A stretch of 64,000 nucleotides of DNA from Planctomycetota bacterium (GTDB lineage Bacteria > Planctomycetota > UBA1135 > GCA-002748355): NCBI GenBank assembly GCA_020426005.1, contig JAGQQW010000005.1:1-64000 (forward strand). Direction: 5' to 3'. The notes under the pieces were generated by a model, which saw only the letters and a list, made by a program, of their open reading frames with translations, did no database searches and had not been told where the DNA came from. Positions 1,205 through 24,719 of the stretch are shown one piece after another (the stretch's first letter is position 1; the number at the start of each line of letters is the position of its first letter). The position numbers and the translations under genes are program-made.

Positions 1205-4200
1205 CGGATCGACCCTCCGGTCACGGTCTTCGTGCTCTGTCCCTCGGCTTCCGCCTCGGCTTCGGATTCTGCATCCAGCAGGACCTCTTCGTCTGCGGGG
1301 ATTCCCTCGCCGATTCCGAGCGTCCGCGGCCACGCGATGTCGAGAGGTTGCTCGTGATCGACCACGTCGAACGACTTCGTCACCGTGTCCTCACCGACCT
1401 TCAATGTCACGGCGTAGGTGCCGGCGGACACGCGCCGGCCTCCGCGCATGCGAGCCCGGCCCCCACCTCCGGCAGTGTTGCGTGCTCGACTCTCGCGCAG
1501 ATTCCACTCGACGCGGTGAAGCCCAGCTCGTTGTTTGCCCTCGGTGCTGAAGACGGTGTTGCCGAGCACATCCGTCACGACCAACTCGACCTTCTTCTTG
1601 GTGTTGACGCCAAGGTGATAGTGAAGCTCGGCACGTTCCGGCGGATTCGCGAGCCTGAAGTAGCGATGTCCCTGACGAGCGACGCTGCGCCTCGCGAAGC
1701 GCGTCACCGTACCGGGTGCGATCAAGGCGAAGTCGCCCTTGCGCGCCTTGTCGGTCAGCTGTCGCAACGACCGCACGTCGATCGACCAAACACCACGGCC
1801 GTGCGTCGCGACGATGAGGTGCTGCTCGCGCTCTTGTTGATCGAAGTCGTGGACAGCGACCGACGGGAACCGATCGTCGAACTTCTTCCAGGACTTGCCA
1901 CGATCGAGACTGATCCACAGACCGGTCTCGGCGCCGAGATAGAGCAAGTCCTGGTTGACGTTGTCGTCACGGACGCAACGCGCCGAACCAGCTTCGACGG
2001 GAAGCTCGGCAGTCAACGACGTCCACTTGCCACCGAAGTCCTCCGTGACGAACACATACGGATCGCGCTTTCCACTGCGATGCCCATCGACCGTGACGTA
2101 GGCACGCCCATCGGCGTGCGGACTCGCGTGCACACTGCCGATCCAGAGCGGCTTCTTTTCGGGCAACAACTCCGCGATCTTGTTGGAGAGATCGTCCCAG
2201 TTCTTGCCGTCGTCCTGCGTCGACCAGAGCTTGCCGTCATCGGTACCGACCCAGAGGATGCCGGGCTTGCGCGGCGATTCGGCGATCGTCGAAAGACTCG
2301 GCGGGGAGGATCGCTCCTCGCCCTTGGGCACGTCCCGAATGAGTTGCGGACTGATCGTGAGCACGTCGCGGCCGCGATTCGGCGATTTGTACAGCTTGGA
2401 TCCACCGTAGTAGATCGTGGTGCCACCGAAGTTCGAGAGGATGAACGGCGTGTTCCAGTTCCAGTTGCGATCACGTTGCTTGTTGATCCGTCCACGGGCA
2501 CCGTGGATGACGTCGACCCAACCGATGTTGCCTCCCTGGCTCTCGCTGAACACGATGTCGGGGTTGTCGGGGTCGACGCGACAGACGAAACCATCGCCAC
2601 TACCGATCTTGAACGCATCGGCGTTGGTGATCCCCTCGGTCCGCATCGTCGCCGACGGCGACCCCCAGCTACCGTTGTCCTGGAACCCCGCGTAGATCCA
2701 ATAAGGCTGACGCGAATCCGCAACGGCGTGATACGCCTGACCGATGTTGATGTTCTCGAAGGTCTCCCAGTTCTGGCACTGGTCGTAGGTGATGTTGACC
2801 CCACCGTCACAACCGAGGATCAAGTGCTTGCCATTGCGCGGGTCGACCCAGAGAGCGTGATAGTCGACGTGCACGTTCGCCATCGTGATTTCGCGCGAGC
2901 GTGATCGGAAGGTCTCACCGCCATCGAAGCTCCAGTAGAACTGGATCCCGCAGACGTAGATGTTCTGCTCATTGCTCGGATCGACGCGAATCTGCGAGAA
3001 GTAGTACGGACGTGGATTGAGCGAGTTGATGCGCTCCCACGTTTCGCCTCGATCCTTGGACAAGTAGATGCCACCGCACTGGAAACCATCGGGCCCCTGC
3101 GACTTCTGGCGATTCTCGAGCTGACCACCGATTCGATCCGCGAACGGCGTGCGAGAGTTCCCTCCTCCCGCGCCCTGACTCCGATCTCCGAACGTGATCT
3201 CGAAGCGACGGATTGCACCGTCGCGTAGCACGACGACGGGTTGGGTGTCGTTGGCGCGTTGCGTCCCGAGGACTTCGAGCATCTCCGCGTACGAGGTCGT
3301 CCCTTCGCCCGCGATCGCGAGCACGATGTCGCCGCTCTCGAGACCGGCATCTGCGGCGGGTCCTTCCTCGGTCACGTCCCCGAGCTTGGCGCCGGCATGT
3401 TCGTCTCCGCCGTTCTGGCCAATGCCCATGAGTGCGGTGCCGGGTGCACCCGGTTCGAGCGCTGGCGCACCCTCGGGGCGCATCCCGATCTTCTCGGTCT
3501 CGATCAACGCGTAGATGTGCGAAGGATTCTTGCGATAGATGTCGAACGACACGCGTCCCATCGCGACCGTCGGGAGTCCCTTCGTGAGCTTCGACCACGT
3601 GGTACCGCCATCGACACTCTTGTAGATACCCGAGCCCGGTCCCCAGCGTTTGATCGGATGATTGCCATCGAAGGCGTCGCGCTGACGTTCATAGAGAGCG
3701 GCGTAGACGACCGAAGGATCTTCCGGATCGATGATCACGTCGGTCGCGCCGGTCTTGTCGTCGAGGCCGAGGACGAGCTTCCACGAGTCTCCTCCATCCG
3801 TCGTCCGATACACGCCACGCTCCGGGTTGGGTGCCCAGAGGTCGCCGCATGCGGCGACGAACACGGTTCGCGGCTCGTCGGGATGAATCGCGATGCGACC
3901 GATGTGCCGGGTCTTCTCGAGGCCCTTGTGCGCCCAAGTCTTGCCACCGTCGGCGCTGTAGTAGACGCCGTTTCCCCACGAGGTCGAGTTGCGATTGTTC
4001 GCTTCGCCGGTGCCGACCCAAACGTGATCGCTGTTCATCGGATCGATCGCAACGTCCCCGATCGACATCACGCTTTCGTTCTGGAAATGCGGGGTGAACG
4101 TCGTGCCGTTGTTGACCGTCTTCCAGAGCCCGCCCGATGCCGAGGCTACGTAGAACTTCGACGGGTTGCGCTCGTCGACGGCGAGATCGACGACGCGCCC

Positions 4201-6628: not shown

Positions 6629-7768
6629 CTACTGCTTGCCTTCTTGTCCTGCGACGAGCTTCTCGACGAGCGCTTCGGCGACCTTGGTCGCTTTGTTGCC
6701 ATCGTGACCGCGGTAGTGGATGCGCATGTCGGCATCGAGCACGACGATCGTCGGCCAACCGGTCACACCCCATGCAGTCGGAATCGGGCCACGCGTTGCC
6801 TGAGGCCCTGCCCAGAAGTTGCGCCACTGCAGTTCGTTCTCGGCAACGGCCTTCTTCGCACGGTCGACCGGGTCACTGTTGACACCGATGAGGACGAAGG
6901 GCTTGCCGGTCATTTCTTCCACGAGCGACCGCTCGTGTGGGTACAGAGCCCGGCAAGGGCCTCACCAATCGCCCCAGAAGTCGAGGAAGATGACGCGCCC
7001 CTTGTAGTCGGACAGCTTGAACTCCTCGCCATCGAGATCGGTGCCGATGATGTCCTTGGCGATGACTCCGACGCCGTAGTGCTCGCGCACGTTGATCGCA
7101 GTGTCGACCTTCTTGCGGACGGCTTCGCTCGCTTCCTTGGCGGCTTCGAGCAATTCCTGCTTGGCGGCCGCGTACTTCGGGCTTTCGAGCGGCGCGCTGT
7201 CGATCGTCGTACCATGGCGAACGAGTAGCGCCGACGCACGAACGTCAGCATTCGAACTCGCGACGAACACGTCCATCGCTCGATCGCCGATATCCGCCGA
7301 GATCATGCGACCGAGGTACGGCAGCATCGGTGCGAGTGCAGCAACGCCGCTGCTGTTCGCGTGCGTCTCGAGGATCGTCTCGAGCGCGTCGCGCATCGCG
7401 TCCTTGTTCGGAGATCCGTTCTGCACGATCCAGACGAGGAACGGGACGGCGTCTTCGCTGTTCGCGAAGGTCTTGGCATAGTTCTGCGCCTTGCCGACCA
7501 GCGGACTGAGATCGGGACGCATCGGGAAGGCCTTGACCGGCTTCTTGCCGCCCTCTGGATCCTCCGCGGCCTCCTTCATCTGCTTCTGGATCGCCTGCAC
7601 TTCCTCACGCCACTTCGCGTAGATCTGCTGCTGTTCGTTGCGCAGATCGCGCATGGCTGCGGCGGGATCGTGCCTCGGAGCTTGGGGCTCGGCACCATCC
7701 TGCGTGACATCCTGCGCAAGGGCGGGCATCGCGAGGAGGGCGAGCGTGAACACTGGAATCAGACGCAT
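6629..7768 (-). CDS. Secreted TlpA/thioredoxin-like selenoprotein (Sec replaces first Cys of CxxC)
   Basis: One continuous frame of 379 residues runs from ATG 7768 (GAGGTG six bases upstream; signal peptide MRLIPVFTLALLAMPALA) to TAG 6629. It is interrupted only by TGA at 6964-6962, codon 269. The surrounding translation is FLDFWGDW-TGA-GPCRALYPHE, so the TGA sits exactly at the first Cys of the thioredoxin motif WCGPC. Downstream the fold is complete: FVLIGVNSD, the cis-Pro motif GWPTIVVLD (in VTGWPTI) and a final helix. Without readthrough the protein would lose its active site and the whole C-terminal half of the domain. A hairpin typical of bacterial SECIS elements follows the TGA. Residues about 20-235 are a helical, Glu/Lys-rich region. 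The gene lies 47 bp after the ECF sigma gene. Expected to act as a periplasmic or secreted thiol-disulfide oxidoreductase with selenocysteine at the nucleophilic site. Selenocysteine machinery genes are not in this window. Confidence 0.88.
6919..6939 (-). promoter_or_regulatory. Candidate bacterial SECIS hairpin
   Basis: In the mRNA, CACGAGC (6937-6931) pairs perfectly with GCTCGTG (6926-6920) around the tetraloop GGUC (6930-6927). A bulged A (6938) is followed by a further C-G pair (6939/6919). The loop begins 31 nt after the in-frame UGA, within the roughly 16-37 nt range known for bacterial SECIS elements. The GGUC apical loop and the 5'-side bulge resemble the E. coli fdhF element. A weaker competing hairpin (GCCC/GGGC) exists closer to the UGA. 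Confidence 0.75.
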
Positions 7769-7815: not shown

Positions 7816-8409
7816 TCAGCGATCATCGACCGCGATCGCGAGACGAGCGAGGCCACGATACACGAGGTTGCGAACGGCGCCTTCGCTCTTTCCCATCCGC
7901 TCACTGATCTCCGGGTAGGAAAGCCCGACGATGCGATAGAGGGTGATCGCTTCGCGCTGGTCAGCCTGCAGATCGGCGAACGCGGCTTCGAAATGCTCGA
8001 GTGCTTCGCGACCCGACATCACGCGGCTCGGTGTGCAGAGCGTTCGATAGACATCGAAGACCGAGGGCGTGGACGCCTCGGCCTCACGGGCACTGTCACG
8101 GCACTGCGCCTTGTAGTAGCGCGCCTTGTCGATCACCTTGTGGCGCACGTGCATCGCGAGCCAGCAGCGGAACGCCGCCTCGCTCTGGAACTCGAACGTC
8201 GCGAGGTCCTTGACGACCTCGGCGCAGACCGACTGCACGACGTCGGTGATCGACTCGCGCTGCGCGACCGCAGGACCGGCGTCGAGTCGGACCATCGCTT
8301 CGAGACGCGGGAGGTTGCGCACGAGCAAGGCTTCGATCGCGACACGTTCGCCGGACCTTGCACGCTGCACGATGGAGTCGTCTCGTTCGCCGTTTGCGTC
8401 GTCGTTCAT
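7816..8409 (-). CDS. ECF-family RNA polymerase sigma factor
   Basis: A 197-residue protein with sigma region 2 at about 50-95 (ESITDVVQSVCAEVV, AAFRCWLAMHVRHKVIDKAR) and region 4 at about 140-190 (LQADQREAITLYRIVGLSYPEISERMGKSEGAVRNLVYRGLARL, with the helix-turn-helix at its end). Its ATG overlaps by 4 bp (ATGA) the stop of the full-length kinase-SUMF frame, implying translational coupling. No anti-sigma gene lies next to it; in Planctomycetota some ECF groups are thought to be controlled by Ser/Thr kinases, and the upstream membrane kinase would fit that role. The selenoprotein gene follows 47 bp downstream and could be in the same transcript. Target promoters are unknown. Confidence 0.9.
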   Translation of the reverse strand: MNDDANGERDDSIVQRARSGERVAIEALLVRNLPRLEAMVRLDAGPAVAQRESITDVVQSVCAEVVKDLATFEFQSEAAFRCWLAMHVRHKVIDKARYYKAQCRDSAREAEASTPSVFDVYRTLCTPSRVMSGREALEHFEAAFADLQADQREAITLYRIVGLSYPEISERMGKSEGAVRNLVYRGLARLAIAVDDR

Positions 8410-11045
8410 CGCGGCCTGCCCTCGTTGTTCGAGACGAGACGGCGCACGATGCGCAGGCCTCGGAGTTCATTCTGATTGTCGGGGGAGATCGACTGCCGGT
8501 ACGACACACTCGCGACACTCGGAGGTGAGCGCCACGAACCGCCGCGCATCATCGCGAGCGATGCATCCCCTTCGAGCAAACCATCGCCTTGTCCGTGTCA
8601 GGCGGCATCGGTCGGGTAGGCACTACAGTATGGATCGCGACACCACTCCCACACGTTGCCGAGCACGTGGTGGAGGCCGAAGCGGTTCGGCCGGAGCGCA
8701 TCGACACGGGCAGCGAGCGGCCAGCCATCTCGTTCGTCGATGCAGATGTCACTCGGGGCGGCACCGGTTTCTTCAGCGCACGCATCGGCGATGTTCGCTG
8801 CTGCATGACCGTTCGAGAGAACGAGATCGTCGACGCTGCGCCCGCTCCACCACGGCGTCGAAGTCCCTGCCCGCGCCGCGTACTCCCATTGGGCTTCGGT
8901 CGGCAAATCGAGACCGTATGCACGGACGGCACGAGCAGCGATGTTGCGACTCACGGTGTCGACCGGCCAACCTGAGTCGGCTCGCGCATAGGCGGCTGTC
9001 GGCGTGGAGTTGCGAGCCAACTCGAGCGCAAGCGCGTGCAATCGTGCTGGGTCGTAGTACGACGGATCGCTCCCGGCCCAGCGTCTCCACTGGGCTTGCG
9101 TGATCTCGTGCTTGCCAACGAAGAACGGATCGAGCCGGACGGAATGTGGAGGCACCTGATTCTCGAGCGCGGAAGCGTCGAAGTGCGGCCGACGGGCGTC
9201 GGAATACTGCGCACCGATCATCGCCTCCCCACCGGGAACGAGGACGACGACCGGATCTGCGACATGCATGTTGGGGACTCGCCCGTGCTCGTCGAACTCC
9301 GCTTCGACACCCCCGACTTGCCAGACACGAAACTCCCACAGCCCCGTCGAGGGATTGCGACGCAACGGGACGAGTCCGGGCTGCGGCTCGATCCGCAGAC
9401 CTCGATAGGCGGGGCACTCGACTTCGCTCGCGATCGATTCGATCGCAGTGCGCCATCGCTCGCCAGCTTCGCCAACCGTCACACGGTGCACATCGTGGGA
9501 CCATGCCAGGACGCGACGTACTCGATCGACCGTCGATCCGTCCGCCTCGAACTCGTCGAGGTCCCGAAGGAGTTCGTCGATGGAGTCGCGCAGCACGATG
9601 TCTTCGTTGCTCGGGTCGCGATCTGCGGTGGCAATCTCGGCGAGGAGTCTCTGCTTGTCGGGCCGCCGAGCAATCAAATCGCTCGCACTCGCCAGCCAGG
9701 ATTCGAGTTCCATGGCTGGAGGCACTTCACCCGCACCGACGCGGAGCAAGTCGCCGGCACGCGCTTCGAGCTTGCGCAGGACGACGACGTCCCCGAGTTC
9801 GTGGAAGCGCGCCAACTGCTCCGCGCTATTCGTGGCGTTTCGAAGCACCATCGTGACGATCGCTACGAACGCGACGGTGCTGATGAGACTGCCGACCGTG
9901 AGCGTCGGGTTGCGCCGCGCGAACTTCGCGAGACGGTAGAACACACTCGGCGCGCGAGCGACGATCGGCTCGTGGGCGAGGTAGCGACCGAGGTCCTCGG
10001 ACAAACTCGACACCGATGCATAGCGCCGCGTGCGATCGTGCTCGAGCGCGTGCAGAAGGATGCAGTCCAGATCACCACGCAACTGACGGCACAGCCGCTG
10101 ATTCTTCGAGGTCTGCTCGCCCACGTGCTCGCCGACACGGCTGCTCGGACGCTTCGCCTCGTGCGTCGCGATCGCTTCGAGCAGGCGTGCGAGCCCGCTC
10201 GAACGGACGTCGGGTAGGTCGATCGGATGAGCATGTGTGAGCAACTCGTAGAGCACGACTCCGAGCGAGTAGACATCGGTGCGCACGTCGAGATCGTCGT
10301 GTCCGGCATCCGCTTGTTCTGGACTCATGTACTGCGGCGTGCCGACGACCTGACCGACGAGCGTGTGCTGCGCACCGACGTCGAGCGAGGCTTCGATCGC
10401 CTTCGACAACCCGAAGTCGATGACCTTGGCCACGGGGCGCGGTTCACCATCGACGACGAGGATGTTGGTCGGCTTGAGATCGCGGTGGATCACGCCCTTC
10501 TGGTGAGCGTGCTGCACGGCATCACAGACCTGCAAGAAGAGCTCGATCCGTTCGCGCAGGCCCAAGTCGTGTGCGTCGCAGTACTCCGTGATCGGAATCC
10601 CATCGACGTACTCCATCGCGAGGTACGGGATGCCGTCCTGCGAGCCGACGTCGAAGACCTTGGCGATGCCATCGTGCTGCATCCGCGCGATCGCGCGCCG
10701 CTCGAGTTCGAAACGACGCAAGGCTTCGTCGAGCGCAACGCCCGTGCGCACGAACTTGATCGCGACTTCTTGGTCGATGTCCGTGCGACGTGCGTGCCAG
10801 ACCTCCCCCATACCGCCGCGGCCGAGCAAACGATCGAGTTCGTAGGCGCCGACCGCTCGAGGGGTCGCATTCGGGGGCTCGGGTGAGACATCGTTGACGT
10901 CGAGTCCCCAGGCCCCGAGTACCGCGACCTTGCGGCGCAGTTCGTCAGCGAGTCCGGGATGTTCGGCGCAGATCTGCTCGATGGCCGAAGGGCCGACCTC
11001 GTCGATCCGTTCGAGTGCGATCGCGACGAGGCTCTCGAGGTCCAC
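8406..11045 (-). CDS. Membrane Ser/Thr protein kinase fused to SUMF/FGE-like domain, with in-frame TGA at codon 816
   Basis: The frame from GTG 11045 (AGGGAG Shine-Dalgarno six bases upstream; GTG 11060 is an alternative) encodes a Hanks-type kinase at about 69-340: GRGGMGEV P-loop, VAIKF lysine, HRDLKPTN catalytic loop (187-194), DFGL (210-213). A transmembrane helix follows at about 384-403, then a linker and a sulfatase-modifying-factor domain from about 600 (VPGGEAMIGA, DLPTEAQWEYAARAG, LGNVWEWCRDPY). TGA at 8600-8598 interrupts this last domain, but the same frame continues for 64 codons with the conserved ending MRGGSW...YRQSISPDN...GLRIVRR. It stops at TGA 8408-8406, overlapping the sigma-factor ATG. 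The SUMF part lacks the catalytic Cys pair of true formylglycine-generating enzymes, so it is more likely a sensor or binding domain. Readthrough as selenocysteine, a recent nonsense mutation, or a sequencing error are all open; if termination occurs, the SUMF domain is truncated. Confidence 0.8.
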
Positions 11046-22490: not shown

Positions 22491-24719
22491 ATGATCCAAC
22501 GTCTCGCTCGAGACGCGCGCCGTGCCTGCGCGTCGTGCGTTCTACTGCTTTCCGCGACGTCGTTCGTCATCGCGCAGCAGTCGACCGTCACCGTCGTCAA
22601 CTCATCGCACATGCCCCGCGTCGAGTGGGCGCGCGCGTCGGTGCCGTTCGCCCAGGGTCAGATCAAGAAGAACGATCCGATTCCGTTCAACGTCGACTGG
22701 AAGGCCACGGAGTGGCGGCCGCTCCAGTACTGGCCGGACGGCACGCTCAAGAGCGCGCAGGCGCAATGGCTCGAAGTCCTGGGTGGCGGTGAAAAGGCAG
22801 TCCGAAAGATTCGCCCGGGCACCGTGCGCGCCAAGCCGTTCGCTCTTCACCCTGCGATCAGCGATGCAGCTCCGCTCTTTCGCATCTTCACCAGCGTGAC
22901 GGATCGCGATGGCGTCCCTTACATCGCGGAGTCGCGCCCGTTCGACAAGCCGGGCAACCACCTCACGGTGTTGCACGGCAACCACGCGACGTACAGCGTT
23001 CGAACGCGCTCGTACCACGTCAATCCGCAGAACAAGGGCATCGGTCGCGACTACTTCAGTCAAACCTGCTACTTCACGTTCTTCAGCGAGATCCCGATCG
23101 CGGTCGTCGACGTCGTTGTTGCCAACGATTACCTCGGATCGGACAACCCGAAGTCGAACGATCCCAACATGCACCCGCTCGGCGACATCGGTTTCAAGTC
23201 GCTCGATCTCTTCGTAGCGGGTGCACGCGGTGTCGTGCGGTATCCCGACAAGAACGACGTCGGTGTGCACATGGTCGACACGTTCATGTCGCCATCGACG
23301 CAAGTGAACCTGCTGAAGGATGATTACCTCGGCGATGCACAAGGCAAGCGATGGCGCGTGATCGTCGTCTTCGATTCACCGCGCTACACGCCCGGTGAAC
23401 GATCGGCGTGGGCGAACGTCGCGGCATCGTGGTTCACGCACTCGATGATCCCGACCGTCGACCTCGCGACGTGGCAACGAACGAAGGCCTTCGGGCTCTA
23501 CGGAGGACCTGTCGATCCTTCGACGTGGGGACCGGTCCAGATTCGCGAAGACTACGACCTGTGGCTGCAACAGCCGCACTTCGGCGCATGGGCGGACTGG
23601 GGTGATTACACACACACCTGGGTGACGGGCACGCACCGGAACGGCCCATCGACGGAACACAAGATCCTCGCGGTGCAGCATCAGGATCCGCGTCCGCTCT
23701 ACATGCTCGAAGGAAAGGCTTGGCAGCAAACCGCGCGGCCCTACCAGATCTGGGACATCCGGATCGAGCCTGACGACGACATCTACATGTGGGACGGCTT
23801 GCCGTACACCCTCGCGAGCACTCGTCGAATCAGTGCCGAAACGCTCGGTCGCTACGACTTGCGGCAGAACGATCCGTACAGCTACTACAGGAAGGACGTC
23901 CCCATCGGCTACAACCACCGATGGAACGCCTACGAGCCAGAGCACTTCTCGACCGAACTCCTCTTCGACTACTTCTCGATGACGGGCGACTGGCGCTGCC
24001 TCGACGAGATGCGAATGCTCGGTGAGTGCTACATGGGATGCTTCCGCCATCAGAAGTATCAGATCTCGTACGGCCCGCTATCCGCACGTGGCGAAGGCTG
24101 GCCTGCACAGGCAGCGATCAAGATCTGGTTCGCGACTGGCGATGATCGCTTGATCCAACATTTGCAGCGTCGCATCCGCGAGATCATCGAGCCCAAGCGT
24201 GAGAAGAACCACCCGAGCAAGGCCATCAGCTTTGCGCCGCAACATCCGCTCACGCTGTTCCCGACGCCGAACACCGCGCTGCTCCCGTGGCAGCACGCGG
24301 CCATCATCTACGGCTATTACCCGCTGTGGCAGTATTGGGGGGACAAGACCGCTCGCCAGATCGCACACGACATGGTCAGCGTCGTCGAGTATTCGTGGGT
24401 CTTCAACTACAACGACCCGGTGCTCGGCTTCTTGCCCGACGTGATGCGCTACTACGTCCCGATCACCTACCAGAACAAGCTGTGTCCGCCCGATATCTGG
24501 GACAACACCCAAGGGATCGGTGTGCGCTATGGCGACCTTCCTCTCGGTGGTGCGCACACGTTCTTCGCTGCAGCCCTGGACGTCCTCGCGGAGGACACGA
24601 CGGATCCGATCGAACTCGCGAAAAACCAGTACGCGCGCAAGCACTTGATGCACGACAAGCCCAACACCGACCGTTGGCGTTACAGCCGTTGGTTCAGCTT
24701 GCGCGAACCGCCGAAGTGA
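22491..24719 (+). CDS. Large secreted protein, possibly polysaccharide-active
   Basis: A 742-residue protein from ATG 22491 with a signal peptide (CASCVLLLSATSFVIAQ). The frame continues upstream but without coding character. The N-terminal part has a beta-sandwich-like segment (RVEWARASVPFAQGQ, WPDGTLKSAQAQWLEVL), a wording typical of rhamnogalacturonan-lyase-related (PcRGLX/YetA-like) proteins. The C-terminal half looks like an alpha/alpha barrel rich in Trp, Tyr and His (YNHRWNAYEPEHFS, YFSMTGDWRCLDEM, ARGEGWPAQAAIKIWFATGDD, LLPWQHAAIIYGYYPLW), as in many glycoside-degrading enzymes. The catalytic residues cannot be assigned by eye. A secreted carbohydrate-degrading role is an inference; it overlaps the GT4 gene end by 26 bp. 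Confidence 0.75.
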   Translation: MIQRLARDARRACASCVLLLSATSFVIAQQSTVTVVNSSHMPRVEWARASVPFAQGQIKKNDPIPFNVDWKATEWRPLQYWPDGTLKSAQAQWLEVLGGGEKAVRKIRPGTVRAKPFALHPAISDAAPLFRIFTSVTDRDGVPYIAESRPFDKPGNHLTVLHGNHATYSVRTRSYHVNPQNKGIGRDYFSQTCYFTFFSEIPIAVVDVVVANDYLGSDNPKSNDPNMHPLGDIGFKSLDLFVAGARGVVRYPDKNDVGVHMVDTFMSPSTQVNLLKDDYLGDAQGKRWRVIVVFDSPRYTPGERSAWANVAASWFTHSMIPTVDLATWQRTKAFGLYGGPVDPSTWGPVQIREDYDLWLQQPHFGAWADWGDYTHTWVTGTHRNGPSTEHKILAVQHQDPRPLYMLEGKAWQQTARPYQIWDIRIEPDDDIYMWDGLPYTLASTRRISAETLGRYDLRQNDPYSYYRKDVPIGYNHRWNAYEPEHFSTELLFDYFSMTGDWRCLDEMRMLGECYMGCFRHQKYQISYGPLSARGEGWPAQAAIKIWFATGDDRLIQHLQRRIREIIEPKREKNHPSKAISFAPQHPLTLFPTPNTALLPWQHAAIIYGYYPLWQYWGDKTARQIAHDMVSVVEYSWVFNYNDPVLGFLPDVMRYYVPITYQNKLCPPDIWDNTQGIGVRYGDLPLGGAHTFFAAALDVLAEDTTDPIELAKNQYARKHLMHDKPNTDRWRYSRWFSLREPPK

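Follow-up and report, generated by a model that had tools for sequence, protein, structure and literature searches.

A TGA codon within the FGE domain of a planctomycete kinase gene is best read as a nonsense mutation in a genome that decodes selenocysteine

Serine/threonine kinases with a C-terminal FGE-sulfatase (SUMF) domain of family PF03781 occur in planctomycetes, and the kinase gene described here has both this architecture and the motifs GNVWEWCRD and RGGSW in common with them. It lies in a window of 64,000 nt, the whole stretch of DNA that was analysed (positions 1 to 64,000 of contig JAGQQW010000005.1 of a Planctomycetota bacterium). Its best homologues among the planctomycete kinase-FGE proteins are about 41–45% identical to it over most of the protein, and several of their genes adjoin ECF sigma genes. 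True formylglycine-generating enzyme (FGE) carries a catalytic pair of cysteines, SYLCHDSYC, behind the motif RGGS(Y/W); in contrast, the corresponding stretch of the window gene, RGGSWRSPPSVASVSYRQ, has no cysteine there. A first-pass annotation had pointed to an in-frame TGA within the SUMF domain of this gene, and had offered a second selenocysteine (Sec) codon, a recent nonsense mutation or an error as its explanation.

The kinase frame starts with the GTG at 11045-11043 on the minus strand and meets the TGA at 8600-8598. The features of the region are the following:

8598..11045, minus strand: kinase-FGE gene up to the in-frame TGA (815 codons from GTG, plus the stop)
10197..10844, minus strand: protein kinase domain PF00069, residues 68-283, intact (143.3 bits, cut-off 31.7)
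8442..9251, minus strand: FGE-sulfatase/SUMF domain PF03781, residues 599-868, across the TGA (113-117 bits, cut-off 23.3)
8598..8600, minus strand: in-frame TGA (codon 816); variable loop flanked by GNVWEWCRD and RGGSW (frame reading and alignment)
8557..8588, minus strand: hairpin after TGA 816, arms GGCGAUG/CAUCGCU, loop GAAG (no evidence of function)
8406..8597, minus strand: frame after the TGA, 63 sense codons for the C-terminal quarter of the FGE domain, followed by the ancestral TGA
7816..8409, minus strand: ECF-type sigma factor gene, with an ATGA overlap with the ancestral kinase stop (PF08281, 54.3 bits; PF07638, 33.2 bits)
6629..7768, minus strand: TlpA/thioredoxin-like selenoprotein gene, DFWGDWUGPC (PF00578, 51.9 bits; one TGA in most relatives of the order)
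6962..6964, minus strand: Sec TGA of the TlpA-like gene, motif UGPC
6920..6937, minus strand: bSECIS hairpin of the TlpA-like gene, CACGAGC-GGUC-GCUCGUG (GGUC loop, equally spaced in all 34 relatives)

The match to PF03781 crosses the TGA, which places the codon inside the SUMF domain, as annotated. It scores 113.2 bits when the stop is read through and 95.7 bits when the protein is cut there (cut-off 23.3), and the match of the truncated protein to the FGE-sulfatase profile stops at position 196 of 255. The frame after the TGA continues as the end of the SUMF domain: the profile match spans the stop, and the tail retains all eight invariant or near-invariant residues (R834, G835, G836, R846, R850, G863, R865 and R868, from 39 homologues). 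The 64 codons originally counted in it are 63 sense codons plus the stop. Its codon score is 0.13 per codon, a value below which 19% of gene stretches fall and which tops 94% of out-of-frame stretches. The reported ATGA overlap is likewise present, TGA 8408-8406 of the kinase frame overlapping the sigma ATG at 8409-8407.

Among 118 distinct homologous frames, drawn from the host genome, its relatives and GTDB species, the window gene alone has a stop between GNVWEWC and RGGS; the other 117 read on. Because only the window gene ends at TGA 816, the longer frame is the ancestral gene. A paralogue in the host genome (C222) is followed 16 nt after its stop by an ECF sigma gene on the same strand, and a homologue from the same genus (in G001) by one about 26 nt after its stop, as one would expect if the overlap marks the original end of the gene. 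The initial view of the longer frame as the original gene is thus upheld by homologues that cross codon 816, by the conserved FGE end and by relatives with adjoining ECF sigma genes. A naturally shorter form of the family was also considered; homologues ending naturally at codon 816 were sought, none was found among the 117 others, and this possibility was rejected.

A model of the FGE region with the stop read through (mean pLDDT 88.7, pTM 0.87) matched formylglycine-generating enzyme (2q17, 6muj) and PvdO (5hha) in Foldseek, with E values of 1e-17 to 4e-16 and TM scores of 0.64-0.66. Codon 816 corresponds to residue 240 of this model, in a loop between strands 223-229 and 255-258, and strands 255-258, 274-277 and 291-293 fall after it. 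In the alignment of 39 homologues, the codon belongs to a small insertion that is specific to this lineage and sits in a variable loop.

Decoding of UGA as Sec is real in this host. Its bin contains a tRNA-Sec (71.6 bits; anticodon tca according to ARAGORN), a SelA gene adjoining a Sec-type SelD gene with a TGA of its own (motif GUAAK), and a match to the C-terminal part of SelB at a contig end, so the genome does not argue against the Sec idea. The TlpA-like gene, next but one from the kinase gene after the sigma gene, served as a positive control for such decoding, and on sequence grounds makes a convincing selenoprotein gene. The first Sec codon implied by the first-pass annotation, which we took to be TGA 6964-6962, is genuine, both the TGA and the hairpin being conserved in relatives. 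These Sec-TlpA relatives form a large group in the order; a genome often has several members, and almost every member carries one TGA. The core of their hairpin, ACGARCGGUCGYUCGU, keeps a constant spacing in 34 of 34 copies, in proteins down to about 33% identical. Tandem Sec-TlpA pairs in several relatives (loci L171, L176, L178 and L181) suggest local duplication of the selenoprotein. SelD with Sec in the GUAAK motif was seen in almost every one of about 60 relatives (loci L151, that is G000:C165, and L184-L211), and the loop of its hairpin is mostly CGkGm, unlike the GGUC of the TlpA genes.

For codon 816 itself, the Sec reading would have tRNA-Sec and SelB decode the UGA and the hairpin at 8588-8557 act as bSECIS. 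In its favour are the machinery listed above (tRNA-Sec, SelA, Sec-type SelD and the SelB match), the Sec-TlpA gene two genes downstream of the kinase gene, and the hairpin, which exists as described, with its arms and a GAAG loop beginning 25 nt behind the TGA, at about -12.4 kcal/mol. The homologues argue otherwise: at the place of codon 816, 36 of 39 have a gap, the other three have A, R and G, and none has Cys, which bears out the earlier remark on how unusual Sec would be here; moreover, none of the 117 other frames has a TGA there. The FGE domain lacks the cysteine pair of true FGE, so that no redox partner is in sight. As to the hairpin, one at least as strong follows 30% of 400 random codons from window genes. 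The rules described for bSECIS elements are a loop of 3-9 nt, a stem of 4-16 bp, a G at the first or second loop position, a spacing of 16-37 nt and an energy of at most -7.5 kcal/mol (PMC13188914). They let through a variant with a 9-nt loop behind codon 816 (-9.3 kcal/mol), but in this GC-rich DNA they also let through 51% of 3000 random codon sites. The hairpin does not have the more specific G(G/U) loop pattern, and it resembles neither the 34 TlpA hairpins (all GGUC) nor the 27 SelD hairpins (mostly CGkGm) of the clade. In the SECIS check proposed at the outset the hairpin thus did not stand out: about a third of ordinary codons are followed by one that matches or beats it, and it lacks the loops of the clade's SECIS elements. 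A strict hairpin script, which needs four contiguous base pairs, misses the host's own SelD hairpin and is not sensitive; for this reason the case against Sec rests on the homologue evidence and on the random-codon rate. Sec at codon 816 was rejected on the alignment, the unshared TGA, the hairpin energy relative to random codons and the clade comparison, and we regard it as extremely improbable. Decoding of UGA 816 by any route, Sec or readthrough, without Cys ancestry has a very slim chance; with Sec, a signalling kinase from a planctomycete rich in selenoproteins would have gained this residue in a variable loop and, if true, Sec would have arisen without a Cys ancestor.

Of the explanations offered for the TGA, a nonsense mutation at codon 816, recent or polymorphic, is the best and probably the right one; an error comes second, and readthrough and Sec are improbable. 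The gene has intact homology on both sides of a stop that is absent from its homologues, as expected of a nonsense-interrupted gene. Also in favour of this reading are the TAA and TAG stops of homologues, described below, and the use of TGA as the normal stop in the window. In divergence, the tail (rank 8 of 40) does not exceed the blocks that precede the TGA (ranks 4-8 of 40). Decay of the tail was sought in its agreement with the majority residue, which is lowish (13/25, rank 5/40), and in a likelihood measure, which is ordinary (rank 17/40), and no decay is claimed from either. Since the tail residues are kept and its divergence is like that of earlier blocks, the break would be young: judging from the sequence, the interruption is most simply taken as recent, polymorphic or an error. 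A search of the bin at the DNA level for another copy of the locus, as a strain variant would provide, found none. Counting against the nonsense mutation, an undecayed tail is compatible with readthrough too, and UGA does not always mean termination here, since the host decodes some UGA as Sec. A sequencing or assembly error, in which one consensus base is wrong and the real gene uninterrupted, would also fit the intact remaining frame and undecayed tail, and the bin is a fragmented metagenome assembly (634 contigs, 67% complete, 3.3% contaminated). Yet single substitution errors seldom occur in a consensus and the adjoining genes are intact. The host bin has about two dozen FGE-domain genes, and in-frame stops were found in 1 of 24 FGE matches and in 0 of 91 kinase-domain matches; the latter figure argues that the bin is not error-ridden, and such an error is unlikely. 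Leaky or programmed readthrough would have a near-cognate tRNA sometimes misread the TGA, giving two forms of the kinase with the full FGE domain still in use. The conserved tail is in keeping with this, as is the C that follows TGA 816, C after a stop being a leaky context in bacteria. However, no homologue has any stop at codon 816, so that no selected programme is visible, and a recent stop accounts for the undecayed tail equally well; we consider readthrough quite improbable. Reassignment of TGA to an amino acid throughout the genome has the open frame in its favour and nothing else. TGA terminates most window genes, with in-frame continuations that look non-coding, as well as the kinase gene at its ancestral end. 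TGA being an ordinary stop in the window, reassignment was rejected, and has virtually no chance of being correct. A second TGA-split frame, at 22542-24050 (minus strand), looks non-coding.

On the preferred reading of a nonsense mutation, a single-base change would have created TGA at codon 816, in the small insertion within a variable surface loop. Translation would end there, yielding a protein of 815 residues with its kinase domain intact, and the FGE domain would lose its last quarter, including three strands and the RGGSW motif, so that the truncated domain probably neither folds nor works. With the new stop about 190 nt upstream of the sigma ATG, translational coupling of kinase and sigma factor would be lost, and the sigma gene would then have to rely on a weak ribosome-binding site of its own. 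Ahead of the sigma ATG stands a modest purine-rich stretch, GAGGG, which may allow independent translation starts; promoter and terminator scans found nothing. The undecayed tail implies that the change would be recent or still segregating in the population.

The interruption of the kinase gene is an ordinary event, and one nonsense-interrupted paralogue carries little weight alone. It does hold a caution: in a GC-rich genome that uses Sec, an in-frame TGA with a hairpin behind it is not evidence of selenocysteine, because the general hairpin rule is satisfied by half of ordinary codons. The Sec-TlpA gene is the more interesting object nearby. Premature stops were also seen elsewhere among relatives. 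The kinase-FGE homologue L143 (G001:C83, same genus) has an in-frame TAA in its FGE domain at locus position 3256, and two FGE-domain homologues from groundwater planctomycete bins have in-frame TAG codons, L095 at positions 3241 and 3742 and L096 at position 3637. Being TAA or TAG, none of these can encode Sec; the TAG pair of L095 might reflect decay or reassignment of TAG in its bin.

Compared with known systems, the FGE domain of the window gene is predicted to share its fold with formylglycine-generating enzyme and PvdO, and differs from them in having three strands beyond the stop. Unlike its planctomycete kinase-FGE homologues, the gene has a TGA at codon 816, in a lineage-specific insertion. 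With the bacterial selenoproteins Sec-TlpA (UGPC) and Sec-SelD it shares an in-frame TGA and the same genome, and with TlpA also the gene cluster, but codon 816 has no Cys or Sec counterpart, no shared TGA and no matching SECIS. It resembles L143, L095 and L096, paralogues of the kinase with a premature stop in or near the FGE domain, from which it differs in the position of the stop and in the stop codon used. Interrupted paralogues recur, and nonsense interruption is ordinary in the kinase-FGE family.
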